Below, in pieces: positions 27,654 to 45,742 of a stretch of 64,000 nucleotides of DNA. Below the pieces are notes generated by a model. That model saw only the letters and a list, made by a program, of their open reading frames with translations, was not told the origin of the DNA and ran no database searches. Every line of letters starts with the position of its first letter. Position 1 is the first letter of the stretch. Source of the DNA: Bacilli bacterium (GTDB taxonomy: Bacteria; Bacillota_I; Bacilli_A; RFN20; CAG-826); contig JAKVOO010000001.1 in NCBI GenBank assembly GCA_022482735.1, positions 677,699 through 741,698 of the forward strand. The letters are read 5' to 3'. The position numbers and the translations under genes were made by a program.

Positions 27654-28859
27654 CTATATTTTTGTGGTATCTTCACTATCGATAAAATCGCTATCGCCGT
27701 TATTTTTGCCACCCTCATAAAATGAAGGAGACATTGAATGGAGATATTTATCCTCATACATCAATTTATCAACCACATTTTTAAATTGCTTTGCCGTCAT
27801 TCCCGAATTTTTCCGATAGACGGAGTAGCCAATACTAAATTCAATTTTATATGGCCGCGATGAAGCCTGATTATAGCGAATTGTTTGGCGTTGAATCTGC
27901 CAAACAAGGGAACGAATATCCCGTTCGCTATCGATGTTACTTATAATAAAAAATTCATCTCCTCCAAATCGGGCTAAATAATCATGAGGGCTGACGACTC
28001 TTTTTAATATATTCGCGGCTTCTTCAAGAGCCGTATCGCCGGCATTATGACCATACTTATCATTAATTATTTTGAAGTTGTTCAAATCAAGCATAAAAGC
28101 GGCAAACTTCTCATTCTTCTTCATATTCTTTATTTTACGGGCCAAATAAGTATCGAGACTTCGCCGGTTATAGACCCCGGTAAGAAAGTCCGTCGTGGCA
28201 TTGGAATATTGAATATTCATTGCCCCGATGATAAAGCCAAATACCATTCCCAAGATTGAATAAGTGACTCCCGGTGCAAAATATTGAATTATTAACCCAA
28301 TTAACGGGAAGATATTAAATCCGAGTGATGTAAAAAAGCGATCATGATCGATATTCTTATAATTAGCTAAAACAAGAATTACCGAAGCAAGGATACAAGC
28401 GAGAATGAGAAATACCGAGAAGGGATATAACGAGGCACGATGGTAAATGTTTCCGCTGTCGATAGTAAAGTACAAATCGGTCCCCGGAATAAGTGAACCA
28501 ATGGTTAAAATCGCGTTGGCAATCGCCAACACAAAGAGTACAACGACAAGAAAAGTATTTTTTTCGGTCGATACAAGTGTGTAATAGACGTAGTATATCC
28601 ATAGGCAAGCCGCTACTTGGGCGAGCATAAATAAACCCGTATTCCCGACTTTATTCAATATTGGATACCATGGTGAAGAAACACCATCTAGGCTTCCCAA
28701 CATATCAAAGGCAAGAAGGCCAATCGTCACAAAAAGCAACAAGAAAAAAAGTTTATTCTCCTTTTGATCTTGATCAATCTGTTTACGCACAAGAATGAAC
28801 AAAACCACGAGAATAACCATTGAATAAATATCGATAATCAACTTCCCCATCAGTGTCAT
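27654..28859 (-). CDS. Membrane diguanylate cyclase (GGDEF)
   Basis: Makes cyclic di-GMP from two GTP. About 210 residues of hydrophobic helices (six to eight spans) are followed by a GGDEF domain: TDFLTGVYNRRSLD, AAFMLDLNNFKIINDKYGHNAGD, then RFGGDEFFIIS with an intact GGDEF active site. The inhibitory I-site RxxD four residues before is replaced by SPHD, so product inhibition should be weak. It sits divergently beside the c-di-GMP-controlled surface locus and is its obvious local source of signal. The C-terminal end is Asp/Glu/Lys-rich. Confidence 0.93.
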   Translation of the reverse strand: MTLMGKLIIDIYSMVILVVLFILVRKQIDQDQKENKLFFLLLFVTIGLLAFDMLGSLDGVSSPWYPILNKVGNTGLFMLAQVAACLWIYYVYYTLVSTEKNTFLVVVLFVLAIANAILTIGSLIPGTDLYFTIDSGNIYHRASLYPFSVFLILACILASVILVLANYKNIDHDRFFTSLGFNIFPLIGLIIQYFAPGVTYSILGMVFGFIIGAMNIQYSNATTDFLTGVYNRRSLDTYLARKIKNMKKNEKFAAFMLDLNNFKIINDKYGHNAGDTALEEAANILKRVVSPHDYLARFGGDEFFIISNIDSERDIRSLVWQIQRQTIRYNQASSRPYKIEFSIGYSVYRKNSGMTAKQFKNVVDKLMYEDKYLHSMSPSFYEGGKNNGDSDFIDSEDTTKI

Positions 28860-30773: not shown

Positions 30774-32232
30774 AAATCGGGATGAAATATGCCAAGACTG
30801 TCCGTTATCTAACAAAGAACCGGTGATCATAATTAACGAGATATCGCCTTCCCCGCTACAAGCCCGCGTTTTAAACTATACCGGAAATCCGAATGAAGAA
30901 ACTATTGTGTTAAAAGTTCCAAGTCGCGAAAGTTTATTGAGCAACGCCCTTTTTGTCGATAAAGATTTATCTATTAAAAATCGAGCCCGCTTAATTGCCG
31001 ATATCCGTGAGGCTCTCTACACCAACCATCGCGGTTTTATTTTAGGCATTCGCCTTGCTCTTGATGATAGTGAAATTAATCCTCTAACCAAAGATGATAA
31101 ATTATCTTTCCTAAACGCTATCAGCCAGTCGATTATTGAGGCCGGATATGAAAATGTCCTTTTTCGCATTGATGATGACGCTTTAGCTATTAATTTTGTC
31201 GAAGCACCTCGACCGGCGACTTTTAATCGGCTTGAGGATATTTATAAACATATAGCCATTAAAGCCCATCACCTTTCCGAAAAGATATCGTTTAATTTGG
31301 CGTTACTTGAATACCCAACCGATTGTAATGACGCCATTATTTTGGATAAGACCATTGACGACGGCCTAAATAAATCGGCTAAGGTGGGGAAAAATATTCT
31401 TTATATTATTCGCAATCGCGTTTCAAGACCGGCTGATCGCAATGCTTATATTCTTAACTTCTATGAAACGGCAACTAGTCGCAATTACTGGGAATCATAT
31501 GTCCAACCGCTTATCAACCTTGACAATGAGTTTGTAACGGGTGGCGAAATGCTGTTGCGCTTGTATGATCCTAATCGGGCTGGCTTTATTCCACCGAATG
31601 ATTTTGTCGATTTATATAGCGATAATCGTCTAATGTGCGATCAAGAAAAAGCCATTATTCGCCGTGTTGGAGAAATGTGGCGGTCGCTCGGCTATACGTT
31701 ATTTAGAAGCCGAGGTATTGATAGAATTTCGGTTAATATTTCTTTTGACACCATTATCAATAAAGATTTTCATGGTTTCTTAAGTGGCGTTATAAATCAA
31801 TACAAATTTCCGGCTAATTTTTTGCAACTTGAAATTGATGAGGATATCGCTATGCTCCATCAGGATGAAGTACGCGCCTTTATTAAGCGCAATTCCGATT
31901 TAAAGATATCATTTATTTTGGATAACTATACCGGTAGAAACCTTTCACCAAACAGCATTAATTCACTTGGATTCCATTATTTGAAACTTGAGCAGGCCGC
32001 AATTCGTTCTATTGAAAATGACTCTGATTCCTATGTTAATTTTACGCATATGGTCAACCGATTGAAAACTTTGAACCTAGAACTTATCGTTAAAGGGGTT
32101 GAGACTGAACGGCAGGTAAACATTATTAAATCGCTCGGTATTCATTATTGCGAAGGTTACTTTTACGCCAAGCCAATGCCGATTGACGATTATGAAAAAT
32201 ATATTGTTTCAACCGATCAGCAAACTATTTGA
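30700..32232 (+). CDS. Degenerate GGDEF-EAL signalling protein, C-terminal part (frameshifted)
   Basis: Continues the upstream reading frame after the shift: the rest of the PAS domain, a second degenerate GGDEF-like domain, and an EAL domain (about 250-505). The EAL domain has EMLLR for EALLR and keeps SVNIS and the Lys in HYLKLE. The DDFGTG loop is LDNYTG, and the last Glu (family EGVE) is Lys (VKGVE). It should therefore be unable to hydrolyse c-di-GMP and may be a receptor. The ATG at 30700 lies inside the other frame and has no ribosome site, so this is not an independent gene. The stop overlaps the -35 box of riboswitch 1. Confidence 0.75.
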   Translation: MCHRILPVTFPHQPLIGQKCYKVFRNRDEICQDCPLSNKEPVIIINEISPSPLQARVLNYTGNPNEETIVLKVPSRESLLSNALFVDKDLSIKNRARLIADIREALYTNHRGFILGIRLALDDSEINPLTKDDKLSFLNAISQSIIEAGYENVLFRIDDDALAINFVEAPRPATFNRLEDIYKHIAIKAHHLSEKISFNLALLEYPTDCNDAIILDKTIDDGLNKSAKVGKNILYIIRNRVSRPADRNAYILNFYETATSRNYWESYVQPLINLDNEFVTGGEMLLRLYDPNRAGFIPPNDFVDLYSDNRLMCDQEKAIIRRVGEMWRSLGYTLFRSRGIDRISVNISFDTIINKDFHGFLSGVINQYKFPANFLQLEIDEDIAMLHQDEVRAFIKRNSDLKISFILDNYTGRNLSPNSINSLGFHYLKLEQAAIRSIENDSDSYVNFTHMVNRLKTLNLELIVKGVETERQVNIIKSLGIHYCEGYFYAKPMPIDDYEKYIVSTDQQTI

Positions 32233-32257
32233 CAACTTTTTTATATGTATATATAAT
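32229..32257 (+). promoter_or_regulatory. Strong sigma-A promoter of riboswitch-1 operon
   Basis: TTGACA, 17 bases, TATAAT: a consensus match. The -35 overlaps the stop codon of the preceding gene, and transcription should begin about seven bases after the -10, just before the aptamer. Confidence 0.88.
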
Positions 32258-32265
32258 CATGCTAG

Positions 32266-32333
32266 ACAAAAGCAAAACTAGAGGAATCTAGCGACGCAAA
32301 GCTATAGGGCCTAATAAAGGTAGCCAGTTGCCA
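32266..32333 (+). ncRNA. Cyclic di-GMP-I (GEMM-I) riboswitch 1
   Basis: The aptamer hallmarks are all present: GCAAAAC at the 5' side, helix CTAGA/TCTAG capped by a GNRA tetraloop (GGAA), the invariant GCGACGCAAAGC junction, GGGCCTAA receptor, and the 3' GGTAGCCAGTTGCC. It controls a three-gene operon of secreted proteins. Its 3' GGTAGCC strand is also the first arm of the terminator that follows. Ligand binding should thus prevent termination (ON switch); the direction is inferred. Confidence 0.93.
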
Positions 32334-32361
32334 ACATTTGAAGGAACGGCTACCTTTTCTT
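32316..32361 (+). terminator. Riboswitch-1 expression platform terminator
   Basis: AAAGGTAGCC pairs with GGCTACCTTT across 22 bases, followed by TTTTCTT. It shares GGTAGCC with the aptamer and contains the likely Shine-Dalgarno AAGGA in its loop. Confidence 0.85.
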
Positions 32362-33198
32362 ATGAAACTGAGAAACAAGATTCTGACCAGTACTTTGTTC
32401 ATTCTCGGTGTGAGTGCTATCATGCTCACAGGGTTTTCTTATGCCTGGATAAATTCAAATAATAATATCGCAGAAATAAATCTTCATAGCGGTGACGCTG
32501 ATGCCAAAATAAATGGCTTTTTATTTAAGCGTCAAACCAATCAAGATGACAATACTTCAATTTTTCTTAATAATGAGCCGGATATTACGGCCACTCAAAC
32601 GAACTCAGGAAATGGTGAACTATCATTTACGTTTAATGATGATTCCGGAACGGTGTTTTCAACTTTAAACGCTCTAAGTCTATATCACGATGAGAATAGT
32701 ATCAGCGCTCAAGCGATGCCGGGGTACTATGTAGAAATACAGCTTTTTACTACTGTTGAGACTTCGTATATGTCCGCTTCCTTGTCTTACGCCAGTCAAG
32801 CAACAGCCGTCGACTTTTCCCTCTTTACTTATCGCTACACCTCAGTGACTAATAATATCAACTCGCCACTGGCCTATGCGGCACCGTCTATTATTAACAC
32901 TTTAGCTAGTAGGTCTTTGAACCCACTTTTTCAAACCGAAGTCAGTCAAAGTGAAATTATCACTTTAACCGATGAAGCTAACGGAAATGCCTATTTTACT
33001 AATACGATTTCTACCGCCGATCAAGCATTTTATAAAACGCACTTTTGCCGGAGTATTATCGTTGAGGTGATGCCGGATCCGATCGCCTTAATCAGTTATT
33101 TTAAGAATAATCCAAGCGTGAGCTATGATGATTTTTCGATTGGCTTCTCTTTTAATTTATCGGTTGGTTTTTCCTTAAACCCAATTGGAGGAAATTAA
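32362..33198 (+). CDS. Secreted protein with SipW/TasA-type signal segment (1)
   Basis: A 278-residue exported protein. The N-terminus MKLRNK plus a hydrophobic stretch ends in GFSYAWINSNN, resembling TasA/camelysin signal segments cut by SipW-type peptidases. The mature part is Ser/Thr/Asn-rich and beta-strand-like, with no Cys-rich or enzymatic motif. The ATG at 32362 immediately follows the terminator T run; a TTG at 32338 would lie inside the riboswitch terminator and is unlikely. First gene under riboswitch 1; probably a minor or base subunit of a surface structure. Confidence 0.82.
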   Translation: MKLRNKILTSTLFILGVSAIMLTGFSYAWINSNNNIAEINLHSGDADAKINGFLFKRQTNQDDNTSIFLNNEPDITATQTNSGNGELSFTFNDDSGTVFSTLNALSLYHDENSISAQAMPGYYVEIQLFTTVETSYMSASLSYASQATAVDFSLFTYRYTSVTNNINSPLAYAAPSIINTLASRSLNPLFQTEVSQSEIITLTDEANGNAYFTNTISTADQAFYKTHFCRSIIVEVMPDPIALISYFKNNPSVSYDDFSIGFSFNLSVGFSLNPIGGN

Positions 33199-33199
33199 A

Positions 33200-35560
33200 A
33201 TGAAAAAGCGCACCCGTCGGCAGGTAACGGGTCTTGCCTTTTCGCTTATAGTCGGACTTTCCGCCTCAGTAGTTGGTATGACATACGCGGCATATGTATA
33301 TAACCGTCGTTATTCAACCCCGATTGAATATAACATTGGCCACCTCTCATCCTATTTTGCGGGCGGCAGCGGTGTTTCGGCGGCACCATATATTATTGAA
33401 ACGCCCGAGCAAGTTCGAAACTTACAAAAATTAAATATTTACGGTGTTTTTAATAAAGACACCTATTTTAAACTTAGTGATAACATTCCTGAAAATGGTA
33501 TGGACTGGGATGGTGAATCTCTTGCACCGATTGGTTCCGAAGATTATCCCTTTTATAGCAATTTTAATGGCAATGGTAAAATCATCAACAATCTTGTAGT
33601 CGATGGCTCTCAAACCAGCGATATCGGCATGTTTGGCTATGTCACCATGGGAGCAAGTGTCGCCAATTTAGTTTTAGCTTCTCCCACCATTAATGTAACA
33701 AATGAAAACAACCCTACCGCCGCCTCTACAACCAACCCGTTGGCTTCGGTTTTTAGCGGAACCGATGGGGCCGCTAGTCTTGAAATAAGTTTGACTACAC
33801 GTACCAGCAGTTCTAATCTCGCTCATTTTACAGTCAACAAGACTGGTTTAAATGCCAATGGAGTAAATTACTCGATAATATATGAAAGTTCCAATGAAGA
33901 TCTTCTCTATCAAACCGCAAATAACATTTGGTATACCAAAGTCCCGAACAACGCTGTAAGTGGTAAATTATATCCCGTTCAACTGTCAGCAAAAGTTTTT
34001 GCCCTTTACGATAATAAAGTTATTTCTTACACTCTCGAACGTTGGGAAATAAATGTCGAATACAACGGTGATGTTAGCGTCGGCAATATTGCCAATGGCG
34101 AATATCCTGGTTTTTTTAAAACTTTGCATGCCACTAGTCTATTTGGACCTCATGGGACTTATGTAGGCTTTTTGATCGGTCATCTTGACGGAACTGCAAA
34201 TAGTCTTGGCGTTTACGGTGGCAATGAGTTAAATACGGCCGTTAATACAAATAATGCCAAAATTATGGTTCACGGTCGCCAAGTGATGTCTTACAGCAGC
34301 TTAATTGGTCGCACTTTAAATGATAATGTTTACGATGATGCCAATGCCAACTTTGATCGTAAATACTTTGATTTTGATAAGATTATCCGTGCCAATATTG
34401 CCGGTGGAGTCAGTGGAGGGACATATGCCATCCCTAATCCTAGCAGTTATTTGTCGACTGACTATTCATCCGTTATTAATAACGTTGCCGTTCAAGCTTC
34501 CACCTATTATGGATTGAATTCTGAAGAGGCATCTTATCTTCGTTTTTATCCAGGATTATCAAACGGCAGTGTGGCTTATTCTTCCGGAGAAGGCAGTGTA
34601 TCTAGTTATGCTTTAAGTATAGCTAATGCTCCCTTATCAGCGAGCGTTCGTAGCGATAAAGGCAGCAGTTACAATAAAAATACCAATTTTTTCCTCCGAA
34701 ATGGCATATGGCTTTGGCTAAATGCCGGGTCGGAGCAACGGACGATTGATTTGTTTAGCGACGAAGCATTTACCGTCATTATTAAAATAACTTATGTGGC
34801 TACCGGTTCAACAAACAATTATTTTCAAATTCTCTTTAATAAGTATAATCCCAGTCTGAGCTATCGGAAGGTTCGTAACGATCACTGGAACAATTTAAGC
34901 AGTGCCACTGATAGTAGCGGTAATTACGTATACGATGCAACTGCCCATCCTTTAATTATGAATGATGGCCAGGGAAATTCTTCATCCGGTCAACTGGTCT
35001 CCCAACAATTAAGCTTTACTGTCAATAAATCTGACTCTTTTTGGGATGGCTTGTTTTCGGATAATTATGGTGGTTTACTGACTACCGACTTTTGGAACTA
35101 TTTCTTTGGAACATATTATTTAATGTTTGGCATTGGTGTCGGTTCAACGATGGAAACGAGCAATAGTGACTACACAACCAATAGTACAGGAAGAATTTTA
35201 TATTCAAACGAGAGTTTCTATTACGAGCCCTTTTCTTTAAATATAATTGGACTCGATATCTATTTTACTTCTGTAAATGGTGATTTAAATCGTCAAGTGA
35301 CAAATGTTGATTTCCTTTATGATATGCCTACTTATGAAAACGGTGTATATACGGCCTGGAATAGTGATAGCAACGTTAAAATAAAATTTACTGTTGGATC
35401 ATCGATGAACAACTCTTCCTTGAATGCGACCTATAACTACTATCGAACTAATACTGGTGGTTACTCTGGAACAGCTGTCCACGTCAAATATACCGGTAAC
35501 ACGGGATATAGTTTTGAACCATCAAATACTGATGGATATAACGAGGCGGTGATTGATTAA
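33200..35560 (+). CDS. Large secreted adhesin-like protein (GLUG-type segment)
   Basis: A 786-residue surface protein. The basic N-terminus (MKKRTRRQV) and hydrophobic stretch end in GMTYAAYVYNRR, as in the neighbours. Residues about 60-150 read YIIETPEQVRNLQKL...YPFYSNFNGNGKIINNLVVDG...DIGMFGYV, the layout of GLUG/beta-helix repeats seen in bacterial adhesins. The rest is Asn/Ser/Thr/Tyr-rich without Cys. No LPXTG or membrane anchor is seen at the C-terminus, so attachment is likely through the other fibre proteins. The ATG has TTGGAGGAA upstream, inside the end of the previous gene. Confidence 0.82.
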   Translation: MKKRTRRQVTGLAFSLIVGLSASVVGMTYAAYVYNRRYSTPIEYNIGHLSSYFAGGSGVSAAPYIIETPEQVRNLQKLNIYGVFNKDTYFKLSDNIPENGMDWDGESLAPIGSEDYPFYSNFNGNGKIINNLVVDGSQTSDIGMFGYVTMGASVANLVLASPTINVTNENNPTAASTTNPLASVFSGTDGAASLEISLTTRTSSSNLAHFTVNKTGLNANGVNYSIIYESSNEDLLYQTANNIWYTKVPNNAVSGKLYPVQLSAKVFALYDNKVISYTLERWEINVEYNGDVSVGNIANGEYPGFFKTLHATSLFGPHGTYVGFLIGHLDGTANSLGVYGGNELNTAVNTNNAKIMVHGRQVMSYSSLIGRTLNDNVYDDANANFDRKYFDFDKIIRANIAGGVSGGTYAIPNPSSYLSTDYSSVINNVAVQASTYYGLNSEEASYLRFYPGLSNGSVAYSSGEGSVSSYALSIANAPLSASVRSDKGSSYNKNTNFFLRNGIWLWLNAGSEQRTIDLFSDEAFTVIIKITYVATGSTNNYFQILFNKYNPSLSYRKVRNDHWNNLSSATDSSGNYVYDATAHPLIMNDGQGNSSSGQLVSQQLSFTVNKSDSFWDGLFSDNYGGLLTTDFWNYFFGTYYLMFGIGVGSTMETSNSDYTTNSTGRILYSNESFYYEPFSLNIIGLDIYFTSVNGDLNRQVTNVDFLYDMPTYENGVYTAWNSDSNVKIKFTVGSSMNNSSLNATYNYYRTNTGGYSGTAVHVKYTGNTGYSFEPSNTDGYNEAVID

Positions 35561-35561
35561 T

Positions 35562-36377
35562 ATGAAAAAAATTAATTCTACATCAAGGCTAAAAACCCGG
35601 CTTGCCGTAACTTTAGTCGCTCTAGCTTTTTCACTAACATCATTATTTTATATTTCTTATGCTTGGTTTCAGTTTGTTCGAAGTAAGCAAGTTGAGGTAA
35701 TGGACGTAAGTGTTCCGCAAGGCATTGAGTATTCTTTAAAGTACTTTGTTGGAAATGGAGAAAATGGTTACCCTGGTCCCGATATGTTTTCTAACGACAC
35801 CAACGCAAGCGTGACTGATTATGAAAATGACTTTTTACCGGTTCCTGAGAATTATGGTGAAAACTATACCTTCTTAAAAGAACCCGGCTATCGTCAAACA
35901 TTTGCCATCGAATTATCCAGTGATTTGAATTTCCCCCAGAATATAAATCTTGCTCTTTCAGAATTTACATCCGTCGCCTCTTTAAGTCGCTTTAATAATA
36001 ATTCCCAAGAAGGCATTAGATTAGCAGAAGCTATTAACATATATATTGCCGATATCAATGGTGCCGATACAAATAGCGCTATAACTTCGGAGGCTAATAC
36101 TTTTGTGCAATCACAAAATCCCCCCGGCGGTGATCTGTTTGATGGCAGTGATCAGACTCATATTCTGGCAACATCGACTCTTGGCGGAAGTTCGTCGCAA
36201 AAGAAAATCTTCCTCTTGACCATCGAATTCAGTGATACCAGTGATACCTACTATTCATTTGATCATACCGATAGTGGGATAGACTATTACAATAAATCCA
36301 TCACCGGCAATTCAAATGTTTATCAGAATTTGGAATTTGTCATTAACAAACTAGAAATAACTACGATTAATGAATAA
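35562..36377 (+). CDS. Secreted protein with SipW/TasA-type signal segment (3)
   Basis: A 271-residue exported protein whose signal segment ends in FYISYAWFQFVRSKQVEV. The YAWF block followed by a short basic turn and beta strand is shared with the protein at 36631. The mature region is acidic and Asn-rich, ending NLEFVINKLEITTINE, reminiscent of the final beta strand of camelysin-like folds. It begins one base after the upstream stop and ends the riboswitch-1 operon. No known catalytic motif. Confidence 0.8.
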   Translation: MKKINSTSRLKTRLAVTLVALAFSLTSLFYISYAWFQFVRSKQVEVMDVSVPQGIEYSLKYFVGNGENGYPGPDMFSNDTNASVTDYENDFLPVPENYGENYTFLKEPGYRQTFAIELSSDLNFPQNINLALSEFTSVASLSRFNNNSQEGIRLAEAINIYIADINGADTNSAITSEANTFVQSQNPPGGDLFDGSDQTHILATSTLGGSSSQKKIFLLTIEFSDTSDTYYSFDHTDSGIDYYNKSITGNSNVYQNLEFVINKLEITTINE

Positions 36378-36455: not shown

Positions 36456-36483
36456 TTGCATATATTTTTAACTGGACTATAAT
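36456..36483 (+). promoter_or_regulatory. Promoter of the fibre-subunit candidate gene
   Basis: TTGCAT, 16 bases, TATAAT. It gives this gene a transcript independent of both riboswitches, with a leader of about 140 bases. Confidence 0.65.
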
Positions 36484-36530
36484 GATGTTGCTTTTGAAAA
36501 CAATTATTGCCCCCTCAATGATTGCAATAT

Positions 36531-36621
36531 AATTAGCGAAATTGCCCGTTAATTATCATCTAAGTCCCATTAACTTAGGTGCCAACCCCTTCAAAATTAT
36601 GAAGGGAGAATCCAGAGGAGG
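36531..36621 (+). promoter_or_regulatory. Structured 5' leader with three hairpins and strong ribosome site
   Basis: Three stems in a row: AATTAGCG/CGTTAATT (one G-U), CTAAGT/ACTTAG, and CCCTTCA/TGAAGGG, ending nine bases before AGAGGAGG. I recognise no riboswitch class. It may stabilise an abundant mRNA or be an unknown regulatory RNA. Confidence 0.5.
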
Positions 36622-36630
36622 ATTTTTATC

Positions 36631-37524
36631 ATGGATAAGAAGAATAAGATTTTATTGTCGTCTGTCGCTTTATTACTCGTCAGCGGAACTGCGGTTACTG
36701 CTGGTACCTTTGCTTGGTTTACTACCGTTCGGTCTGCGACCATCAGTTATTCATCTGCGACTGTGAAAACGAATAGCGGTAACTTGATTGTTGCTTACAA
36801 GTCTTCACTAAATACCCTTGCTGTTAATGATGCCACTCCAGGTGTTATTGCTCTTGCCGGTGCCAACAAAGTTACCGATATTTCGGGAGATGGCGTTTCT
36901 TTCTATAAACCAGTTTGGAATGCTCATGACACCGACAGAACCCTAGCTGATAGCATTGAGGATGTCTCTTCAACTGCCGATGGCAATTTTATTGACTTTA
37001 CCGTCACTATTTCTCGGACCAACGTTGATCCAGAAACAAATGGTATGTATGTCTATCTTGGTCAAGACACATCGATTTCCGCTGTTGATCCTGGCAACCC
37101 AGCCGACGTTGAAGCTGCCAATGCCGCTCGTTTAGCCGTTGTTAACTATGACGATAGAACTTCTGAAGGAACCGCTGCTACCAACTTCATTTGGGCGCTA
37201 AATCCAGATGCTAATTCACAATATATTTCTTTGGCTGAGACTGGCACTAGTGCTTATGGGGTTGATGGCTACCAATTAACAAGTGTTACTGCTGATAATG
37301 ATGGCGACTTACTCTATAGTGGAGCAATTAAAAATGCCCCAACTCCAGCCAGTTCTGTGTTACCGAAGATTGCTGATTTATCCTTTGATGGCGCGACTCC
37401 GTTGATTACCGAGGATATTACTTTCCGGGTTTGGCTTGAAGGAGTTAAAGTCCAAAACTCGGCCAGAGGTGGCGTGTTTAAAGTTAACCTTGACTTATAC
37501 GCCCTTGAAGTTGCCGCCGCTTAA
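36631..37524 (+). CDS. TasA/camelysin-like major fibre subunit candidate
   Basis: A 297-residue secreted protein with the clearest TasA-like start in the locus: MDKKNKILLSSVALLLVSG..., ending in AGTFAWFTTVRSATISYSS. AWFTT is the motif after which SipW-type enzymes act. The mature domain is beta-rich with the conserved-looking C-terminal strand ITFRVWLEG, also found near the end of the protein at 38395, and a final Ala-rich tail. Own promoter, long structured leader, AGAGGAGG site and immediate terminator all suggest high expression, as for a main structural subunit. Family assignment is by motif; TasA itself polymerises into biofilm fibres. Confidence 0.83.
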   Translation: MDKKNKILLSSVALLLVSGTAVTAGTFAWFTTVRSATISYSSATVKTNSGNLIVAYKSSLNTLAVNDATPGVIALAGANKVTDISGDGVSFYKPVWNAHDTDRTLADSIEDVSSTADGNFIDFTVTISRTNVDPETNGMYVYLGQDTSISAVDPGNPADVEAANAARLAVVNYDDRTSEGTAATNFIWALNPDANSQYISLAETGTSAYGVDGYQLTSVTADNDGDLLYSGAIKNAPTPASSVLPKIADLSFDGATPLITEDITFRVWLEGVKVQNSARGGVFKVNLDLYALEVAAA

Positions 37525-38074: not shown

Positions 38075-38102
38075 TTGACAATTGTTTCAATTGATATATA
38101 AT
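38075..38102 (+). promoter_or_regulatory. Strong sigma-A promoter of riboswitch-2 operon
   Basis: TTGACA, 16 bases, TATAAT, with the aptamer starting 14 bases later. Confidence 0.85.
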
Positions 38103-38115
38103 TGTTCTTGACAAA

Positions 38116-38187
38116 GGCAAAACTAGAGAAATCTAGCGACGCAAAACTAAAGGACCTGTAGCGGATAGCGATGGTAGCCAGTTGCCG
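38116..38187 (+). ncRNA. Cyclic di-GMP-I (GEMM-I) riboswitch 2
   Basis: GGCAA pairs with TTGCC to close the aptamer. Helix CTAGA/TCTAG has a GAAA tetraloop, followed by GCGACGCAAAAC, GGACCTGTAG and GGTAGCCAGTTGCC. The core is very similar to riboswitch 1 but the joining arm and expression platform differ. It leads the six-gene operon carrying the AAA+ ATPase, signal peptidase and phosphodiesterase. Confidence 0.92.
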
Positions 38188-38192
38188 TACGG

Positions 38193-38247
38193 AATAAAAA
38201 AGATTTGATCGATTCCGGGCAATGATTGGTTAACATCGATTTTTTTA
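38193..38247 (+). terminator. Riboswitch-2 expression platform
   Basis: ATCGAT plus flanking A run pairs with ATCGATTTTTTTATT with a small bulge. In addition GGGCAA at 38217-38222 can pair with the aptamer's closing TTGCC, offering an alternative fold. Aptamer closure and this pairing exclude each other, as expected for a switch. Confidence 0.65.
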
Positions 38248-38394
38248 TTTCCATGGGGTCTCGTCAATCGTTAAGAATGATGAGAGGCAGCCAAACGAAA
38301 TTTATCCGCGTAGTAATGGAACGCAGAAAGATGGAGTTGGCAAGAAAAGGTCTATCTTTTCTATCTTTTGTCGTAACTTGAAAGGATAATCGAT
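38248..38394 (+). promoter_or_regulatory. Long leader after riboswitch 2
   Basis: A 147-base leader separates the riboswitch platform from the ATG at 38395. It can form a CTCGTCA/TGATGAG arm and holds GAAAGGA as ribosome site. It contains an open frame of 42 codons without a ribosome site, which I do not count as a gene. Confidence 0.35.
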
Positions 38395-39546
38395 ATGGGA
38401 GCACCAAGCGAATTACTTAAGAACCGCAAGCGCGCCAAAAAAGCCCGCACCCTGCTGGCCATATCGGCAAGCCTGCTGGTTACATTTGTAGTTATTTCTT
38501 ATGTGGGAGCAACAGTCGCTCGCTATCTAGCGAATTCAACGACCGTGGCTTTTTCTAACAAATCAACTGGTGATGCCAATTTGATGAAAGTTGGTTTTCG
38601 TGTCCAAGAGCCCATCGGGGAGAGTGAGTTAGAAACATATCACCTTACTAGCGATTCGAATAATTATGCTGGTGGAGGCTATGTTTATTGGAGCGATTTA
38701 TCCGTGGGAGCCAAAACGATGCAATACATCGTTAGCCATGAGGGCTATTCGGCTTCGAACACAGTAAAGCCTATCACTAGTAAAAGATTTCAAACCGGCG
38801 ATGAAATTAGTTTATATGATCGTCCGTCCAGTAATAGTGCAACCTATACCCGAGTTGTTGACTTTTCGAGTGAAGCCAATAAGAGTGACTATATCGCTTT
38901 TGATATTCTCTTTAATGTTGGTGTCATTCGTCAAGATGAAACTGTATCTGGTGTAGCAAACAACGCTATATATTTTGACAACGATACGGCTTTTGCCGGC
39001 AAGAACAACATTACCCAGGCTCTTCGCCTTGGGTTTGAAAGTGCCTATACCTCGGATATTATCAGTCCGGGAAGGAATGAAAAGGGTTCGATAGCGGTCG
39101 GTGGTCGGATGGATTTAGACGAGGATGGCTATTTTGATTTTACGAGCGATCCAACTCTACTTGAAGATGGGGAAATTGATGAAACTCTTTATGAGATTGC
39201 TTATGGTGATTTTGTCGATGATTTAACCGATGATAGTTGGGGACTAGCTGAAAATGAAGACATTCCCGCAGACACAAGCGAAGTTGCCTTCTATAACGGT
39301 AGCACCAAATCTGGTGTTCGTCCTTTAACTAATGCTATTCCAGCGACAGCGCACTACGACAAAATCAGCACTTATCAACAGAACACTGGCAATATGCCAA
39401 TTGCTGTAACCGATGAAAACGGCATTGCTGAGGTGAAAATTAAAATTTGGCTAGAAGGCTGGGATCATGCTTGCACGAATCTTCTTGTTTCAGGAACTTT
39501 TGGTGCGCAGTTAAAGTTTATTTCTTCACCACTTACTTCTAATTAA
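38395..39546 (+). CDS. Secreted WLEG-motif surface protein
   Basis: A 383-residue exported protein, first in the riboswitch-2 operon. Very basic N-terminus (KNRKRAKKARTL) and a hydrophobic helix ending in SYVGATVARYLANST. The mature acidic domain ends in EVKIKIWLEGWDHACTNLL, matching the RVWLEG strand near the end of the TasA-like protein, so both probably share one beta-sandwich fold. An anchor or cap subunit is plausible. GAAAGGATAATCG lies before the ATG. Confidence 0.82.
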   Translation: MGAPSELLKNRKRAKKARTLLAISASLLVTFVVISYVGATVARYLANSTTVAFSNKSTGDANLMKVGFRVQEPIGESELETYHLTSDSNNYAGGGYVYWSDLSVGAKTMQYIVSHEGYSASNTVKPITSKRFQTGDEISLYDRPSSNSATYTRVVDFSSEANKSDYIAFDILFNVGVIRQDETVSGVANNAIYFDNDTAFAGKNNITQALRLGFESAYTSDIISPGRNEKGSIAVGGRMDLDEDGYFDFTSDPTLLEDGEIDETLYEIAYGDFVDDLTDDSWGLAENEDIPADTSEVAFYNGSTKSGVRPLTNAIPATAHYDKISTYQQNTGNMPIAVTDENGIAEVKIKIWLEGWDHACTNLLVSGTFGAQLKFISSPLTSN

Positions 39547-39575
39547 TTGTTGCCCTTTAATTTTTTAAAGATAAT

Positions 39576-39597
39576 CAAGGCTGGATGGCCTTGGTTT
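39576..39597 (+). terminator. Weak intergenic hairpin/attenuator
   Basis: CAAGGC, TGGATG loop, GCCTTG, then GTTTTG. Could reduce expression of the ATPase and later genes relative to the surface protein. Confidence 0.5.
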
Positions 39598-39618
39598 TGC
39601 CTTTATGAAAGGATACTT

Positions 39619-41160
39619 ATGAGTAATTTCTTTAGTTATATTCGGGATTTATTTACTGCCCTTTTTCGTAATTTAGGGGACTTTTTCTATACCGGTATAA
39701 TTAAACCATGGACCTTCGTAGGTAGCGACTTTTCAGAATATGATGCCATTCTTCGTACCTATTTGGACGGATTTGGCATTTGGGGATGGATGCTATTTGT
39801 TCTCTTCCTTTTAATTGTGGTTTCTATTATTGGCCTTCTTGGTTATATGCTATATCTGCTAATTTATCGTGTCGTAAGAATCGGTCGTAACGATATGACG
39901 AGATCCAAAATGCTCGCCCAAATTCAATCTCTAAATGACCAGTTATATGCCGCGGTGATGGAGAAAAACGAGATTTTAAAACTGAAGGTCGGGTCCTTGG
40001 GAATCAATCCCAACAGTTCATCACTTAACCCCGATGGAACTTCCCGGGATGAGGAAAATAAAGTTAATGATTCGATGTTCCCAAAATTGGCGATGATCGA
40101 TAAGAAATACCAGGATTATCATCCGCGAGTGGATTCGCCAGATATGGATGCCAATATCTCATTAGAGGAGCTTTCTGCTCGCTTTCGTCTTTTTGCCGCC
40201 TCACAACTTGGACTTTATTATGAGACTTCGATGATTAGAACTGTATTCGCTGCTTTAGGCACGAGCCGGCTATTGATTCTTGAAGGCATATCTGGTACCG
40301 GTAAAACTTCCTTGCCTTATGCTCTAGGCAAATTTTTTCAAAATGATGTCCAAATATGCTCAGTTCAACCTTCGTGGAGAGATCGGAGCGAACTAATTGG
40401 TTACTATAATGAATTTACTAAAAAATTCAATGAGACCGATTTTTTAAAAGCGGTCTATGAAGCCACTTATCGTGAGGACAATTGCATAATTATTCTCGAT
40501 GAAATGAACTTAGCTCGGGTAGAGTATTACTTTGCAGAATTTCTATCTATCATGGAAATGCCTGATCCAAGTGAATGGAAAGTTGAGGTTACCAACACCC
40601 CCAGTGCGGATAATCCCCGTCATCTTGAGAATGGTAAATTATTGATTCCCCAAAACTTATGGTTTTTTGGAACGGCCAATAATGATGACTCGACTTTCAC
40701 CATTACCGACAAAGTTTACGACCGGGCGATGTCTTTACAGTTAAATAATAAGGGCGTGGCTTTCGATGCAGAATTTACTGAACCGGTGGCTATAACTTAT
40801 AACTATTTAGCCCAACTTTATAATGAAGCGCAAACAAACTATCCTGTTTCTGAAGTTAACTTGGGTCGTTTTGCTAAATTGGACACTTTCGTTATCGCCA
40901 AGTTTCATATCGCCTTTGGCAACCGGATTATGAAGCAATTGAAGCGTTTTGTTCCTAATTACGTCGCCTGTGGAGGCACTGAATTAGAGGCATTAGACTT
41001 TATATTTTCAAGTAAGGTTTTAAAGAAATTTTCCGCCCTTAATCTCGCTTTCTTGCATGAAGAGTTAAAACAACTTGCGACCGAATTAGAAAAACTCTTT
41101 GGTAAGAACACTTTTAAATTATCCAATCAAGTCATTGATGATTTCATTAAGATGAGTTAG
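39619..41160 (+). CDS. Membrane-anchored McrB-like AAA+ ATPase
   Basis: A 513-residue protein with a strong membrane helix near residues 50-75 and a linker to the AAA+ domain. Walker A is GISGTGKTS (about residue 222), Walker B is CIIILDEMN (about 295), and sensor-1 is WFFGTANND. The ILDEMN...V.YYF.EFLS.ME pattern is typical of the McrB/MoxR-like branch. McrB proteins normally work with a nuclease (McrC), but here the gene sits between secreted-protein and signal-peptidase genes and is membrane-anchored. So a role as motor or chaperone for surface assembly is more likely than DNA restriction; this is inference. ATG with GAAAGGATACTT upstream. Confidence 0.85.
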   Translation: MSNFFSYIRDLFTALFRNLGDFFYTGIIKPWTFVGSDFSEYDAILRTYLDGFGIWGWMLFVLFLLIVVSIIGLLGYMLYLLIYRVVRIGRNDMTRSKMLAQIQSLNDQLYAAVMEKNEILKLKVGSLGINPNSSSLNPDGTSRDEENKVNDSMFPKLAMIDKKYQDYHPRVDSPDMDANISLEELSARFRLFAASQLGLYYETSMIRTVFAALGTSRLLILEGISGTGKTSLPYALGKFFQNDVQICSVQPSWRDRSELIGYYNEFTKKFNETDFLKAVYEATYREDNCIIILDEMNLARVEYYFAEFLSIMEMPDPSEWKVEVTNTPSADNPRHLENGKLLIPQNLWFFGTANNDDSTFTITDKVYDRAMSLQLNNKGVAFDAEFTEPVAITYNYLAQLYNEAQTNYPVSEVNLGRFAKLDTFVIAKFHIAFGNRIMKQLKRFVPNYVACGGTELEALDFIFSSKVLKKFSALNLAFLHEELKQLATELEKLFGKNTFKLSNQVIDDFIKMS

Positions 41161-41170
41161 GTTAATTTAA

Positions 41171-42646
41171 ATGACAAAAAAAGTAGAGAAAAAAAAGGTC
41201 GCAACCAGCAAAAAAGAAAAGACTAAATCACCTTCAAAAAAGAAGAGAAAAAGATTAACTCCGGTTGAAAAGGTAAATCGGATGAAAGATAAATATACAC
41301 GTCAATTGACGCGTATTATTTTGCGTAATCGTGATTTACGTGAAGTATATAACTTAATCAGTACGAATAAAGATAATACTTTCAGTGGGCTTTCTCGCAC
41401 GGAAACTAAAAAGTATAATGTTGATTTTGTAGAAAAAATTGAAGAAAAATTGCCGGCGATTGAAAAGGTCGTTCAAAATCCGCGCCGGTTTATAAATGAA
41501 ACGCATGAAATAGTTCCAATTGAGAATGCCAAGCGTATCACTCCAACCGCTGTTCGTCATCTTGGTCAACATAGCGAGTTTATTAAATCTGTCAATCCCG
41601 ATGGAACGGTTATGCCGGAAAAAATTTTGAACTCCTTTACTGAAGACGAACTTGCCATCTACGAAAACCGCTTTATTATGACCTTAATTAGACGGCTTCA
41701 AGTTTTTATCGAACTTCGTTACAAGTACATTATGGACCATGGCGATACGCAAAACAGTGATATTATCAAAATGTCAACCCAAGTGGTTATCGGTGGCGCC
41801 ACTTATGAATACACTGGTCAACTAAAACAGGTTATTCCTAGTGATGACAATGGAGAACGCAGCGCTAATGAAGATGTCTTAGTTCGTCTCAAAGAGATTA
41901 GACGGCGGGTTATGTTTTTAGCAAGTTCGCCATTTATGATCATGATGAATAAGGCTGTGCCGGTCAAAGATCCAATTCAGCAGACCAATATTATTCGTAT
42001 GAACCACGACTATCATGATTCATTTTTACTTTGGTCTTACATAAGCCGTTACGACGAACTTGGCGTTTCTTACTCAATAAAACAAAAGAAGAATATATTT
42101 AGCGAAGAGTATTTGAAGAATCTTCATAGTTTAATGGTGGCCTCTTATCTTACCTTAAGTACCGAGAATGCACGACCTATTGAACGCGGAACTCGCGCCT
42201 ACACAATTAAACCACGTTTTACGGATATTCCTGAAGGCATTATTGCTGGTGATGAACGCTTTTTAGACACCGATTTTGCCTTTGCCTTGGTTGCCAAGCC
42301 AAAGTCCGCCAAGCAGATTGCTCTCGAAAAGAAGCGTAAGGAAGCTAAAGAACGTCTTATTGAAAAACGTCGTAAGGAAAAAGAGCAGGCAGAAATTAGA
42401 AAACAAAAAGAAAAAGAAAGAATTTTTGCTAAAAAAGAAGCTGATCGGCAACGGAAATTAATGCAAAAAGAAGAAGCCCTAGAAAAGAAACGATTGCTAC
42501 TTGAGGCCAAAAAGAAAGCTGCTTTAGAAAAGAAACTGGCTCAAGAAGAGGCCGCCCGGGTGGCAGCGATTAACAAGGAAGAGCAACGTAAATTAGAAGA
42601 GGCCAAAAAGAAAGTTAAGGTTAAGGCCGAAAAGGCTCGTGAATAG
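41171..42646 (+). CDS. DUF2357-like protein with long Lys/Glu-rich coiled-coil tail
   Basis: A 491-residue cytoplasmic protein. The Lys-rich head (1-40) leads into a domain with DELAIYENRFIMTLIRRLQ and PIQQTNIIRMNHDYHDSFLLW, which resemble DUF2357-type partners of McrB-like ATPases. The last 110 residues are almost entirely Lys, Glu, Arg and Ala and should form a long charged coiled coil. I see no PD-(D/E)XK nuclease motif. It lies ten bases after the ATPase gene, so the two probably act together. The domain name is by eye and needs profile confirmation. Confidence 0.72.
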   Translation: MTKKVEKKKVATSKKEKTKSPSKKKRKRLTPVEKVNRMKDKYTRQLTRIILRNRDLREVYNLISTNKDNTFSGLSRTETKKYNVDFVEKIEEKLPAIEKVVQNPRRFINETHEIVPIENAKRITPTAVRHLGQHSEFIKSVNPDGTVMPEKILNSFTEDELAIYENRFIMTLIRRLQVFIELRYKYIMDHGDTQNSDIIKMSTQVVIGGATYEYTGQLKQVIPSDDNGERSANEDVLVRLKEIRRRVMFLASSPFMIMMNKAVPVKDPIQQTNIIRMNHDYHDSFLLWSYISRYDELGVSYSIKQKKNIFSEEYLKNLHSLMVASYLTLSTENARPIERGTRAYTIKPRFTDIPEGIIAGDERFLDTDFAFALVAKPKSAKQIALEKKRKEAKERLIEKRRKEKEQAEIRKQKEKERIFAKKEADRQRKLMQKEEALEKKRLLLEAKKKAALEKKLAQEEAARVAAINKEEQRKLEEAKKKVKVKAEKARE

Positions 42647-42650
42647 TTAT

Positions 42651-43253
42651 ATGAATCAATCAACTGCCACAACGAAGAAAAAAAGCAAAGTTGGAACAAT
42701 CATTTCCTGGATTTTAGGAAGCTTGATTGCTCTATTATTTGTTGTGGAAGCATTAGGTTTTATTACCGCGCGTAGCAATTATGGTGTCCCAAATTTCTTC
42801 GGTTACCAAACAATGACCGTTTTAACTGATTCAATGGAACCTGTTATGCCTGTTGGTGTCGGAATTGTCGTGCAAAAAGTTGATGTCACAACTCTAAAAG
42901 CATCCAGTGAAATTGAGAATCACGATGGGGATATTATTTCTTTTTATAACCCCAACGCTAAAGTTATAATTACGCATCGTATTATCGATATTAGTGTTGA
43001 TGGTAACGATAATTATACTTTTTATACTCTTGGTGATAACTTGGAAGCCGAATCTTGCTATGTCAATTTTGGCCACGCTTGCGATTACAGTAACTATGAT
43101 ATCGTTCCCGAAAAATATGTTTTAGGCAAAGTGATTGAAGTATCAAAGCCTATTGGCGTTGCTTACCAAACTTTATCCAATGTCTACCTTTTTCCGATCG
43201 TGGTTTTAATTCCTCTACTTTGGGTATTTATTTCGGCAATGAAGATATTATAA
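42651..43253 (+). CDS. SipW-like (ER-type) signal peptidase I
   Basis: Cleaves the signal segments of TasA/camelysin-like proteins at the membrane. An N-terminal helix (about 15-38) is followed by TVLTDSMEPVMPVG with the nucleophile Ser, then VIITHRIIDI, where His replaces the Lys of ordinary bacterial LepB. This Ser-His pairing defines the SipW/archaeal type. A C-terminal helix ends at SAMKIL. The open frame just after (43220-43456) encodes a charged tail that probably belongs to this protein if one missing base is restored. It starts four bases after the DUF2357-like stop, so translation is probably coupled. Confidence 0.92.
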   Translation: MNQSTATTKKKSKVGTIISWILGSLIALLFVVEALGFITARSNYGVPNFFGYQTMTVLTDSMEPVMPVGVGIVVQKVDVTTLKASSEIENHDGDIISFYNPNAKVIITHRIIDISVDGNDNYTFYTLGDNLEAESCYVNFGHACDYSNYDIVPEKYVLGKVIEVSKPIGVAYQTLSNVYLFPIVVLIPLLWVFISAMKIL

Positions 43254-43456
43254 AGGGCGTTAAGGAGGAAGATACTCCTACAGGTGCTAACGAAAATCGG
43301 CAAAAAAATGATAATATAAGTGATGATGATGAGTTTGAAGATATGAAGCAAAGAGAGAAACTACGCATATTGATTGAGATGGAAAAAGAAAAATTGCGGC
43401 AGGAAATGAATATAGAAAACAGGGAAGAACAAGATGAAGAAAAAAGAAAAAAATAA
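43220..43456 (+). CDS. Charged coiled-coil tail, probably the frameshifted C-terminus of the signal peptidase
   Basis: A 78-codon frame rich in Lys/Glu (DDDEFEDMKQREKLRILIE...). It only has a TTG start lying inside the signal-peptidase gene, with no ribosome site before it. Inserting one T in ATTATA at about 43249 would read MKILLKGVKEED continuously. I therefore favour a frameshifted tail over an independent small protein. It runs on to overlap the start of the EAL gene and contains that gene's ribosome site. Confidence 0.5.
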   Translation: MGIYFGNEDIIKGVKEEDTPTGANENRQKNDNISDDDEFEDMKQREKLRILIEMEKEKLRQEMNIENREEQDEEKRKK

Positions 43457-45017
43457 AAAACTTGGCAGCCGCAGTCTTCACCATATGCGGCCACTTAATA
43501 TCATCATTATCATATCTTTTCTTGTGCTCATTGGAGCGGTAGTAAGCGAGACTTTATTACTAATGAAAATAAAGTTTGCGATGCCCTCTTCCGTAAGTAA
43601 TATTTTCTGGTGGACCGTAGTGATTGCCTTTGCCTTGCTTTTATCCGTACATGCTATCATTATTGCCTTTTATCAAAAACGCATTTACTCCAGTCAGATG
43701 CGCTTCAATTACGATACATTTGCCACGATACGTGACGTGTTTAATGAACACAAATTTTTAAATGCCATTAACACTCGTTACCGCCATAGTCACTTCAATT
43801 ATGCCATTATCAGTTTTTCTGTCTACCAACTAAAAAGAGAGATTTTCTCGCACTATGGTTATGCTGTCGGATCCAAAATTACCGGCATTGTTTTTCAGGC
43901 AATTGAAAACTTATGGCTTAATGATCGGCGTTTAATTTATGGCTATGATTACAATGAAAACTTCTTATTAGCTATTCCTTACGTTCAAGAAGGCGAAATA
44001 CGCGAGTTGACTGACAGTGTTACCTCCGAGGTTGATACCCGCCTAGAACAAAACGGGCTGGCAGCAAAATCCAGTTTCTTTTTTGGAACCTGCTTTTCTA
44101 CCGATAAAAAAACAACCGCTGCTGAGATGCTTCAACATTCGTTAATTGCTGGAGATTTTTCTCGAATCAATAATGAACGACCCGGATTAAAAATTTACGA
44201 AGAAAATATGTTTAATACAATGGCGGCAAATGTTCATTTAGCTGATGAAATTATCCGCGGATTAAACGATCGGGAATTTGAAGTGTTTTATCAACCAAAA
44301 TATGATTTAAATCTCAAGCGTTTTATTGGTGCCGAAGCCTTACTTCGGTGGCATCACCCAACCAAAGGATTATTAACTCCCGCTGCTTTCATTCCTTTTG
44401 CGGAGCAATCAGATTTAATTTTACAAATTGACCACTACGTTTTTGACACCGTCTGCCAGGACATTACCGCCTGGAAAAATAAACGGGAAAGACTATTGCC
44501 GATTTCAATTAACTTTTCTCGACGGACGTTATTTCAAACTGATCTGGTTGGATTCGTATCAAGCAAAATTAATGAGTACAAGGTTAATCCCATGTTGATT
44601 GAGGTCGAGATTATCGAATCGCCGGCTTCACGGGATGTTCTATATTTACTCTCCTTAATTAAGCAATTTAAGGCTATGAAAATCAAGGTTGGAATCGATG
44701 ACTTTGGAACTGGATATTCGTCACTAAGCTACATTAAACGTCTTCCTTTTGATACGATCAAAATCGATAAAGTGTTTTTGGATGACATCGAAATTGACGA
44801 AAAATCACGGGAAATTGTCTCAACCATTGTCCGCTTAGCGCATATCCTTGAAGCTTACATCGTCGTTGAAGGTGTGCAAGAGTATAAACAGGTCCAACTC
44901 ATGAAGAAAATTGGTGTTGACTGTATACAAGGTTACTACTATTCTCGTCCGCTCTCCCCCGAGCAATATTTAACGTTTCTAAAGACTAACCGTTTTGAAA
45001 AGAGGGCCAAAAAATGA
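43434..45017 (+). CDS. Membrane c-di-GMP phosphodiesterase (EAL)
   Basis: Hydrolyses cyclic di-GMP. Two N-terminal membrane helices, a middle region resembling a degenerate GGDEF domain (about 100-260), then a complete EAL domain: EALLRW, SINFSRR, EVEIIES, IDDFGTGYSS, TIKIDK, VVEGVQE and QGYYYSRP. All the metal-binding and catalytic acidic residues expected in active enzymes are present, in contrast to the degenerate copy at 30.7-32.2 kb. It sits in the riboswitch-2 operon, so it is produced when c-di-GMP acts and would lower it again. ATG preceded by GGAAGAA. Confidence 0.94.
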   Translation: MKKKEKNKKLGSRSLHHMRPLNIIIIISFLVLIGAVVSETLLLMKIKFAMPSSVSNIFWWTVVIAFALLLSVHAIIIAFYQKRIYSSQMRFNYDTFATIRDVFNEHKFLNAINTRYRHSHFNYAIISFSVYQLKREIFSHYGYAVGSKITGIVFQAIENLWLNDRRLIYGYDYNENFLLAIPYVQEGEIRELTDSVTSEVDTRLEQNGLAAKSSFFFGTCFSTDKKTTAAEMLQHSLIAGDFSRINNERPGLKIYEENMFNTMAANVHLADEIIRGLNDREFEVFYQPKYDLNLKRFIGAEALLRWHHPTKGLLTPAAFIPFAEQSDLILQIDHYVFDTVCQDITAWKNKRERLLPISINFSRRTLFQTDLVGFVSSKINEYKVNPMLIEVEIIESPASRDVLYLLSLIKQFKAMKIKVGIDDFGTGYSSLSYIKRLPFDTIKIDKVFLDDIEIDEKSREIVSTIVRLAHILEAYIVVEGVQEYKQVQLMKKIGVDCIQGYYYSRPLSPEQYLTFLKTNRFEKRAKK

Positions 45018-45742
45018 TTTTAATTTTGGGAAATAATGCGGATGATATCATCTATATTAAAACAAAAATGGATATTGAACGGGTTGATGAAATTGCTTTA
45101 AATCACCCTGTTTATGTTGGAGTCTACTCAGGCAAAGACATTGTTTTAACCTATACCAAGCCCACCAACACTGTCTCATCCATAATCACTGCACTTTGCA
45201 TCGAAAAATATCGTCCTTACATTGTCATAAGCATTGGCAGCGTTAGCGCTTATAACGAAATTCTTCATCAAGGAGATATTCTCCTTGTAGAAAGAATTTA
45301 TAATGGAGATGTCGATTTAACCACTTTTGGTAATGTTAAATATGGACAAATAGTCGGCCTTCCTGAGTTCTATACATCGGAAGATGATTATATTTCGATG
45401 GTTGAAACCATCAATAGTCGCAGCATTAATCATAACATTCATCGCGCATCGCTAATTTCAACCAATAAGTTTTATACCAGTAAAGAAGCCGCTAATGAGT
45501 TAATTAATCTTCACTTTGCCGCTGTTGACCGAATTGGTGCTTTTGACACCGAATTAGGCGGAATTGCTAGTGCCTGTGCTGTCTTTGACACCCCTTGGTT
45601 AGCGATTAAATCCGTCAACTATGTTATCGGTCACGATAATGAACTTTTGACCTTTGTCCGCAAGGGCATCGAAAATGAACCGATTGTTGGCTCGCTAATT
45701 AGTTCCCTATTTAATAATCTTATTTATTCGATTGAAAATTAA
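45014..45742 (+). CDS. MTAN/nucleoside phosphorylase-like protein
   Basis: A 242-residue cytoplasmic protein of the PNP/UDP phosphorylase superfamily: PYIVISIGSVSAYNEILHQGDILLVERIYNGDVDLTTFG and GAFDTELGGIASACAVFDTPWLAIKSVNYV. These resemble 5'-methylthioadenosine/S-adenosylhomocysteine nucleosidase, although the usual SDxAD catalytic end appears as KSVNYVIGHD, so activity or substrate is doubtful. It overlaps the phosphodiesterase gene through ATGA, a tight translational link that suggests a joint nucleotide-related task, perhaps in c-di-GMP or pGpG turnover (speculative). Confidence 0.75.
   Translation: MILILGNNADDIIYIKTKMDIERVDEIALNHPVYVGVYSGKDIVLTYTKPTNTVSSIITALCIEKYRPYIVISIGSVSAYNEILHQGDILLVERIYNGDVDLTTFGNVKYGQIVGLPEFYTSEDDYISMVETINSRSINHNIHRASLISTNKFYTSKEAANELINLHFAAVDRIGAFDTELGGIASACAVFDTPWLAIKSVNYVIGHDNELLTFVRKGIENEPIVGSLISSLFNNLIYSIEN

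Follow-up and report, generated by a model that had tools for sequence, protein, structure and literature searches.

We consider it likely that the segment 38106-38247 of the window (the whole 64,000-nucleotide stretch of DNA that was analysed) is an ON switch for c-di-GMP and that the RNA made by read-through has a further action, in trans, on the mRNA of the secreted protein T4, which it probably activates. Complementarity and covariation between the two mRNA leaders suggest the pairing in trans, and RNA folding supports the predicted terminator logic; the response to the ligand, the actual pairing in cells and activation rather than repression are steps that we infer. Among uncultured gut Bacilli, covarying trans sites are present in the read-through RNA of this c-di-GMP switch in many genera. 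Through these sites c-di-GMP would reach a gene that lacks its own riboswitch, and pairing in trans would explain the otherwise unexplained conserved motifs GGAUGAUAG, UUGGGAC and UAAUGG.

Aptamer and expression platform of riboswitch 2

The Rfam covariance-model search placed a c-di-GMP-I aptamer (RF01051) at 38106-38189 with 67.7 bits (E 4.1e-11), against a gathering score of 35, and the whole 1.5 Mb genome holds only one further copy, the near-identical aptamer of riboswitch 1 at 32261-32335 (58.8 bits). By model score riboswitch 2 is a genuine c-di-GMP-I riboswitch, with c-di-GMP as the predicted ligand. A sequence-only reading of this DNA had proposed a second c-di-GMP riboswitch at 38116-38247 that has the CTAGA/TCTAG arm, the GNRA loop and GACGCAAA in common with riboswitch 1. 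The riboswitch itself and the shared elements, found in both aptamers, were thereby borne out; the borders have to be moved, to a start at 38106 and to a functional leader that reaches the ATG at 38395. Like riboswitch 2, riboswitch 1 is preceded by a perfect −35/−10 pair (32229-32257, 12/12 sigma-70-type match).

RF01051 model position 11, which we take to be the ligand-contact position G20 of Vc2, is G in riboswitch 2 (window position 38116) and A in riboswitch 1 (32271). G or A at the contact position goes with a preference for c-di-GMP or c-AMP-GMP, respectively, according to the available text of PMC9481103, and G20 is called a selectivity factor for these two ligands in that of PMC9262584. 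The 74 RF01051 matches, which came from 36 of 114 genomes searched (our own included), comprise 23 leaders of the riboswitch 2 type, hereafter second-type leaders, with 16 A, 5 G and 2 unread at this position, and 51 other leaders with 22 A, 25 G, 1 C and 3 unread. Since A and G occur in both leader types, no claim about the ligand is drawn from this base.

In the minimum-energy fold the 3' strand of the aptamer (CGAUGGUAGCCAGUUGCC, strand T5) pairs with GGGCAAUGAUUGGUUAACAUCG (strand T3), followed by seven U, and this terminator alone amounts to −25.2 kcal/mol. Aptamer and terminator are mutually exclusive in riboswitch 2, as both need strand T5, and pairing of T5 with T3 at −8 kcal/mol or better was found in 22 of the 23 second-type leaders. 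The fold of riboswitch 1 likewise contains an exclusive pairing, of AAAGGTAGCC (32316-32325) with GGCTACCTTT (32348-32357). Because this exclusion corresponds to that of the pilM ON switch, both riboswitches look like ON switches, their ligand response being a prediction. Riboswitch 1 also has a likely Shine-Dalgarno sequence, GAAGGA, inside its terminator loop, 16 nt before the ATG (window 32340-32364), so that this hairpin may affect translation too.

The expression platform of riboswitch 2 had been read as different from that of riboswitch 1, and this was upheld in the relatives: second-type leaders are longer and contain an additional helix. Aptamer and start codon are a median of 117 nt apart in the 19 of 23 second-type leaders that were measured, vs 47.5 nt in 50 of the 51 others, and a GGGAC-like D motif stands behind the terminator in 16/23 vs 2/51. 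The additional helix involves a strand A behind the aptamer, whose partner can be either B in the terminator loop or C behind the U tract. A:C duplexes of the same leader reached −11.3 kcal/mol vs −6.6 kcal/mol for exchanged partners, and 0 of 20000 permutations attained the former value (43 of 47 leaders, with L122, L145, L166 and G067 dropped for an unclear terminator arm or U tract and L142, a near-copy of L141, removed earlier). As judged from these comparisons, the platform difference between the two leader types is conserved. Two other readings of the region were rejected. For a second known riboswitch behind the terminator, Rfam had no match in the window up to E 1; behind the aptamer in L213, L202 and L134 no model reached its gathering score, and lower-scoring matches were not convincing. 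An upstream open reading frame at AUGAUAGGC in clade II leaders is not kept in frame and its start codon varies, as assessed by eye.

Table 1. Features of the two riboswitches, the T4 leader and the adjoining operon (window coordinates)
Feature	Position	Strand	Basis
Riboswitch 1: aptamer 32261-32335 and overlapping terminator	32261..32361	+	Rfam match, folds
Probable own promoter of T4, TTGCAT-16-TATAAT (TTGCAT 36456, TATAAT 36478)	36456..36483	+	read from sequence
T4 5' leader, five hairpins, Shine-Dalgarno sequence in the last	36501..36630	+	fold
T4 leader loops CCCCCU; AAAUUGCC; CCCAUUA	36510-36515; 36540-36547; 36566-36572	+	fold
T4, secreted protein with SipW-type signal (FAWFTT), proposed trans target	36631..37524	+	ORF; homologues
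Promoter of riboswitch 2, TTGACA-16-TATAAT	38075..38102	+	12/12 sigma-70-type consensus match
c-di-GMP-I aptamer, riboswitch 2	38106..38189	+	RF01051 model
Strand T5: aptamer 3' strand, also terminator 5' arm	38169..38186	+	minimum-energy fold
Strand A, GGAATAAAAAAG; able to pair with B (38212-38216) or C (38240-38252)	38191..38202	+	A:C own-vs-cross test
K2, CGGGCAAU, complementary to T4 leader 36541-36548	38216-38223	+	complementarity in relatives
Strand T3: terminator 3' arm, holds trans site K2	38217..38238	+	fold; complementarity in relatives
U tract and strand C, able to re-pair strand A	38240..38252	+	A:C test
D motif GGGG (GGGAC in relatives), complementary to T4 loop CCCCCU	38255..38258	+	motif counts; T4 fold
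K1 hairpin, GCGU-AGUAAUGGA-ACGC	38308..38324	+	fold; relatives
K1 loop UAAUGG, complementary to T4 loop CCCAUUA	38314-38319	+	fold; relatives
Shine-Dalgarno stretch and ATG of gene T5	38381..38397	+	sequence, ORF
Operon behind riboswitch 2: T5, McrB-like AAA ATPase, 41171, SipW-like peptidase, EAL protein, phosphorylase-like protein	38395..45742	+	profile matches; order in G019

Complementarity between riboswitch 2 and T4 leaders

Those motifs of the second-type leaders that have no explanation in cis are complementary to the 5' leader of T4 homologues. The T4 leader of the window is strongly folded (z −3.98; 0 of 200 shuffles equally stable), and its loops CCCCCU, AAAUUGCC and CCCAUUA match D (GGGG), T3 (GGCAAU) and the K1 loop (UAAUGG), respectively. 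A similar series of hairpins is present in the T4 leaders of G014 and G055; the leader of G019 and the truncated one of G003 fit worse. Within the window T4 does not stand out, ranking 5th of 54 gene leaders for its match to riboswitch 2, and the combination ATTGCCC..CCATTA has 3 occurrences in the genome vs 2 control matches. Target prediction from the single genome was rejected on these grounds, and the case is therefore comparative.

The relatives comprised 80 loci of named uncultured Bacilli, for the most part metagenome-assembled genomes from rumen and faeces, in a family in which the AAA protein was found in 150 of 224 genomes. A pattern search detected the aptamer upstream of the AAA gene in 37 of the 80 loci, many of the others being too short upstream to judge; where the aptamer 3' half is doubled, the second copy was used. 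In 28 genomes, riboswitch 2 and T4 leaders of the same genome paired with a mean of −18.7 kcal/mol vs −16.4 kcal/mol for exchanged leaders, a difference reached by 0 of 20000 permutations, which mix related genomes and do not constitute a phylogenetic test; dinucleotide-shuffled T4 leaders gave −15.7. This set left out G028, G083, G088 and other T4-like matches such as L045, L064 and L242. G028 has T4 under its own riboswitch and a riboswitch 2 leader devoid of K1 and of GGGC. The K1 region alone, in 17 genomes, gave −18.1 for own vs −14.8 for exchanged leaders (0/20000, also in a reduced set of 12 genomes). K2 alone is weak in clade I, g18 and g24 (626/20000; 370/20000 in the reduced set), and GGGCAA is also constrained by the terminator in cis. 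Riboswitch 1 leaders, taken as a control, pair with T4 less well in 6 of 7 genomes, nearly equally in some; the exception is G055, where riboswitch 1 pairs better than riboswitch 2 (−19.9 vs −18.8).

The sequences of the sites change together with those of their partners. Three pairs of K1 types were distinguished, UUCUAAUGG/CCAUUAGAA, UUCCAAUGG/CCAUUGGAA and UUCUGAUGG/CCAUCAGAA. Among the 12 genomes of g18 and g24 examined, where the pattern was read in 11 riboswitch 2 leaders and all 12 T4 sets, ten match by Watson-Crick pairs at all nine bases, a single GU occurs in G241, and G249, which the riboswitch 2 pattern had missed, pairs with T4 over 11 bases. The K2 site of clade I co-varies as well, with CGGGCAAC/GUUGCCCG in G003 and CGGGCAAUUC/GAAUUGCCCG in G019. 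The riboswitch 2 leader of L141 contains GATCCTGATGG, and a second copy lies at position 108 in the same strand orientation of the DNA. A T4 leader transcribed divergently would there carry the complementary sequence; no T4 protein was detected on this contig. Repeats for DNA inversion were rejected as the origin of the sites, as their order and orientation in the window form no inverted repeat, and in g18, where T4 is divergent, they are direct. Two second-type operons, L191 and L237, have no recognisable aptamer and yet retain GGGCAA and UAUGGC as trans sites that both match their own T4 leaders, where GCCAUA is the counterpart of UAUGGC.

For clade II, the partners were predicted before the T4 leaders were read: the conserved GGAUGAUAG and AUUGGGAC of the riboswitch 2 leaders led us to expect GCCUAUCAUCC and UGUCCCAAU. 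A first search for these partners near riboswitch 2 returned only the antisense of riboswitch 2 itself, and a pattern with the sites in the order K2' then D' matched no T4 leader. T4 homologues were then picked by protein similarity (the g18 query mostly failed, the clade II query worked), and their leaders carry CUAUCAUCC and GUCCC. Both sites pair in all 26 genomes read out of 27 tried, K2 over 9/9 positions (Watson-Crick or GU) and the D core over 5/5; G171 was missed by the pattern of this tally. G063 has changed both sites together, to GGAUAAUAG/CUAUUGUCC with one GU and to UUAGGGAC/GUCCCUAA. A compensating GGAUGACAG predicted for G116 was absent, with a GU pair there instead. A further 27 T4-like leaders were newly found and considered usable; the K2' pattern fits 22 of them, and GUCCC is present in 24 (a hand count of the new rows that excludes alternative starts of one gene, the truncated L058 and a mis-started minus-strand row of L255). 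In 15 whole clade II genomes the motif GTCCCN{28,58}CTATCATCC has 22 matches, made up of 15 T4 leaders and 7 riboswitch 2 antisense sites, vs 1 match for the reversed control.

Proposed mechanism and alternatives

In the absence of ligand, the 3' strand of the aptamer would join 38217-38238 as an intrinsic terminator. With c-di-GMP bound, the aptamer would hold this strand, RNA polymerase would read on and the T5-AAA-SipW-EAL operon would be made. The read-through leader would then offer three sites for pairing with the 5' leader of T4, which is separately promoted and encoded 1.8 kb upstream: K2 as part of the terminator 3' arm, D directly after the U tract, and the K1 hairpin some 60-70 nt farther along. 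If these sites pair with the T4 leader, the secreted protein and the machinery that processes it would be coupled through a single c-di-GMP decision.

The pairing would most likely favour expression of T4. In relatives it would hold the target hairpin and so keep its 3' arm off the T4 Shine-Dalgarno sequence, which this arm otherwise covers, or it would compete with a hairpin beside the target. The 3' arm of the GUCCC hairpin in clade II also pairs with the Shine-Dalgarno region, better than in 90% of shuffles, in 20 of 30 leaders, and riboswitch 2 bound to the loop would keep this hairpin and free the Shine-Dalgarno sequence; such switching was not seen in the other 10 of 30 and is not evident in the T4 leader of the window. 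The K1' site of g18 overlaps GAAUCC, which is able to pair with GGAUUC at the T4 Shine-Dalgarno sequence, and that of g24 abuts a terminator-like hairpin. These three arrangements would all favour activation. As a tentative extension, the two leaders might dock by two or three loop contacts, so that a defined mRNA-mRNA complex forms only after c-di-GMP-gated read-through and co-controls, perhaps co-localises, translation of the secreted protein and the signal-peptidase operon, an arrangement that would have been rewritten in sequence several times across one family.

Much less probable is that the leaders do pair with the opposite effect, either because the riboswitch 2 transcript is the target of the T4 mRNA, which might for instance keep T3 out of the terminator, or because the pairing represses T4. 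The K2' site of T4 (AUUGCCCG) matches T3, so that the T4 mRNA could block the riboswitch 2 terminator, and the riboswitch RNA SreA represses its target (available text of PMC8079631). K1 and D, however, are located past the terminator, in RNA that is made only on read-through, and the geometry for release of the Shine-Dalgarno sequence in 20 of 30 clade II T4 leaders argues for activation of T4. That riboswitch 2 is an ordinary c-di-GMP-I ON switch in cis with a long leader, its T4 matches being kept for structure in cis or as a shared protein site, appears unlikely. Aptamer and terminator would suffice for such a switch, the T4 match in the single genome is not significant and the terminator itself needs GGGCAA; yet complementarity persists through changes of sequence, as in the three K1 types, in L191 and L237 with UAUGGC/GCCAUA and at both sites of G063, the paired motif is specific genome-wide in clade II, and a site for a single protein would recur as an identical sequence and not as its complement. 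The model of the sequence-only reading, in which ATCGAT arms terminate while the aptamer is closed, GGGCAA-TTGCC acts as antiterminator and the two switches differ in threshold, is highly improbable, since the ATCGAT/ATCGAT stem (38190-38247) exists but reaches only −7.7 kcal/mol and forms only with the aptamer 3' strand removed, against −25.2 for the full terminator with its T5:T3 pairing throughout nearly all second-type leaders, and GGGCAA-TTGCC lies inside this stable terminator.

Gene cluster and known systems

The two switches divide a surface-protein cluster between them, as the earlier reading had claimed. Ahead of the cluster are genes for a diguanylate cyclase, on the minus strand at 27654, and for an EAL protein at 30700; riboswitch 1 precedes genes T1-T3 (32362-36377), and T4 (36631) comes after these genes and a terminator-like hairpin. 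This gene order around both switches is kept in G019. The SipW-like signal peptidase of the riboswitch 2 operon scores 60.8 bits to NF046067, under its cut-off, and T1-T5 gave no Pfam match at E 0.01. A TasA/BsaA-type fibre structure of T4 is putative; the predicted model has a mean pLDDT of 53.3 and gave no PDB match at E 0.001. The conserved platform difference suggests that T4 is coupled to the SipW/AAA operon, more so than that the two switches respond at successive thresholds. EAL-domain proteins flank the cluster (30700-32232 and 43434-45017), the second within the riboswitch 2 operon, and if this one is an active phosphodiesterase it would give negative feedback on c-di-GMP.

Riboswitch 2 conforms to RF01051 (GEMM-I) in aptamer sequence and structure, above gathering score, and adds a conserved three-strand platform, a long leader and trans sites. 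In the Geobacter pilM c-AMP-GMP ON switch, as available from PMC9262584, aptamer and terminator are also exclusive and the ligand prevents the terminator; riboswitch 2 differs from it by G at the presumed G20, the extra A:C helix and the trans sites.

Trans-acting riboswitches are rare (available text of PMC7266159), and those described in detail in the accessible part of PMC8079631 are from Listeria. According to that text, SreA is the leader of a riboswitch and has sites for the 5' UTR of a different mRNA, and riboswitch 2 similarly has a leader complementary to another mRNA leader, with covariation. SreA is a terminated product and represses prfA, whereas in riboswitch 2 several loops are involved and K1 and D arise only after read-through, the prematurely terminated product of the window containing only T3/K2. 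The Rli55 cobalamin riboswitch RNA also places its trans element beyond the riboswitch terminator; it titrates the protein EutV and, as far as this part of PMC8079631 extends, has no RNA target. SipW-BsaA of Clostridium perfringens resembles the present cluster in that a SipW peptidase shares an operon with a secreted polymer-forming surface protein (PMC7395162, in part); it differs in being controlled by a two-component system, and a likeness of T4 to BsaA or TasA is putative. In riboswitch 2 an ON switch would occur together with a partner mRNA and with a trans element most of which lies past the terminator, and no c-di-GMP riboswitch with an mRNA target in trans was found in the literature searched.

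Several variants were encountered among the relatives. In G028 (L047, 4395-4601) a T4 homologue has a c-di-GMP-I riboswitch of its own immediately upstream, and the trans motifs are lacking from the second-type leader of this genome. A GC-rich intrinsic terminator follows K1 in g24 (L213, L214, L218, L227) and in L032 (G014), for example GGCGGCGC...GCGCCGTTTTT, and could release a c-di-GMP-gated small RNA; in g24, where no U tract follows the alternative stem of the aptamer itself, this would be a separate RNA from the riboswitch 2 leader. Finally, the 3' half of the aptamer is duplicated in L169, L173, L175, L183, L185 and L186 as well as in G047:C1:190913, G042:C65:176 and G063:C34:40550, with one 5' half followed by two successive units, each a 3' half and its own terminator, of which the later has GATAGCCAGTTGCC as its 3' half; the arrangement resembles a double check on a single aptamer.
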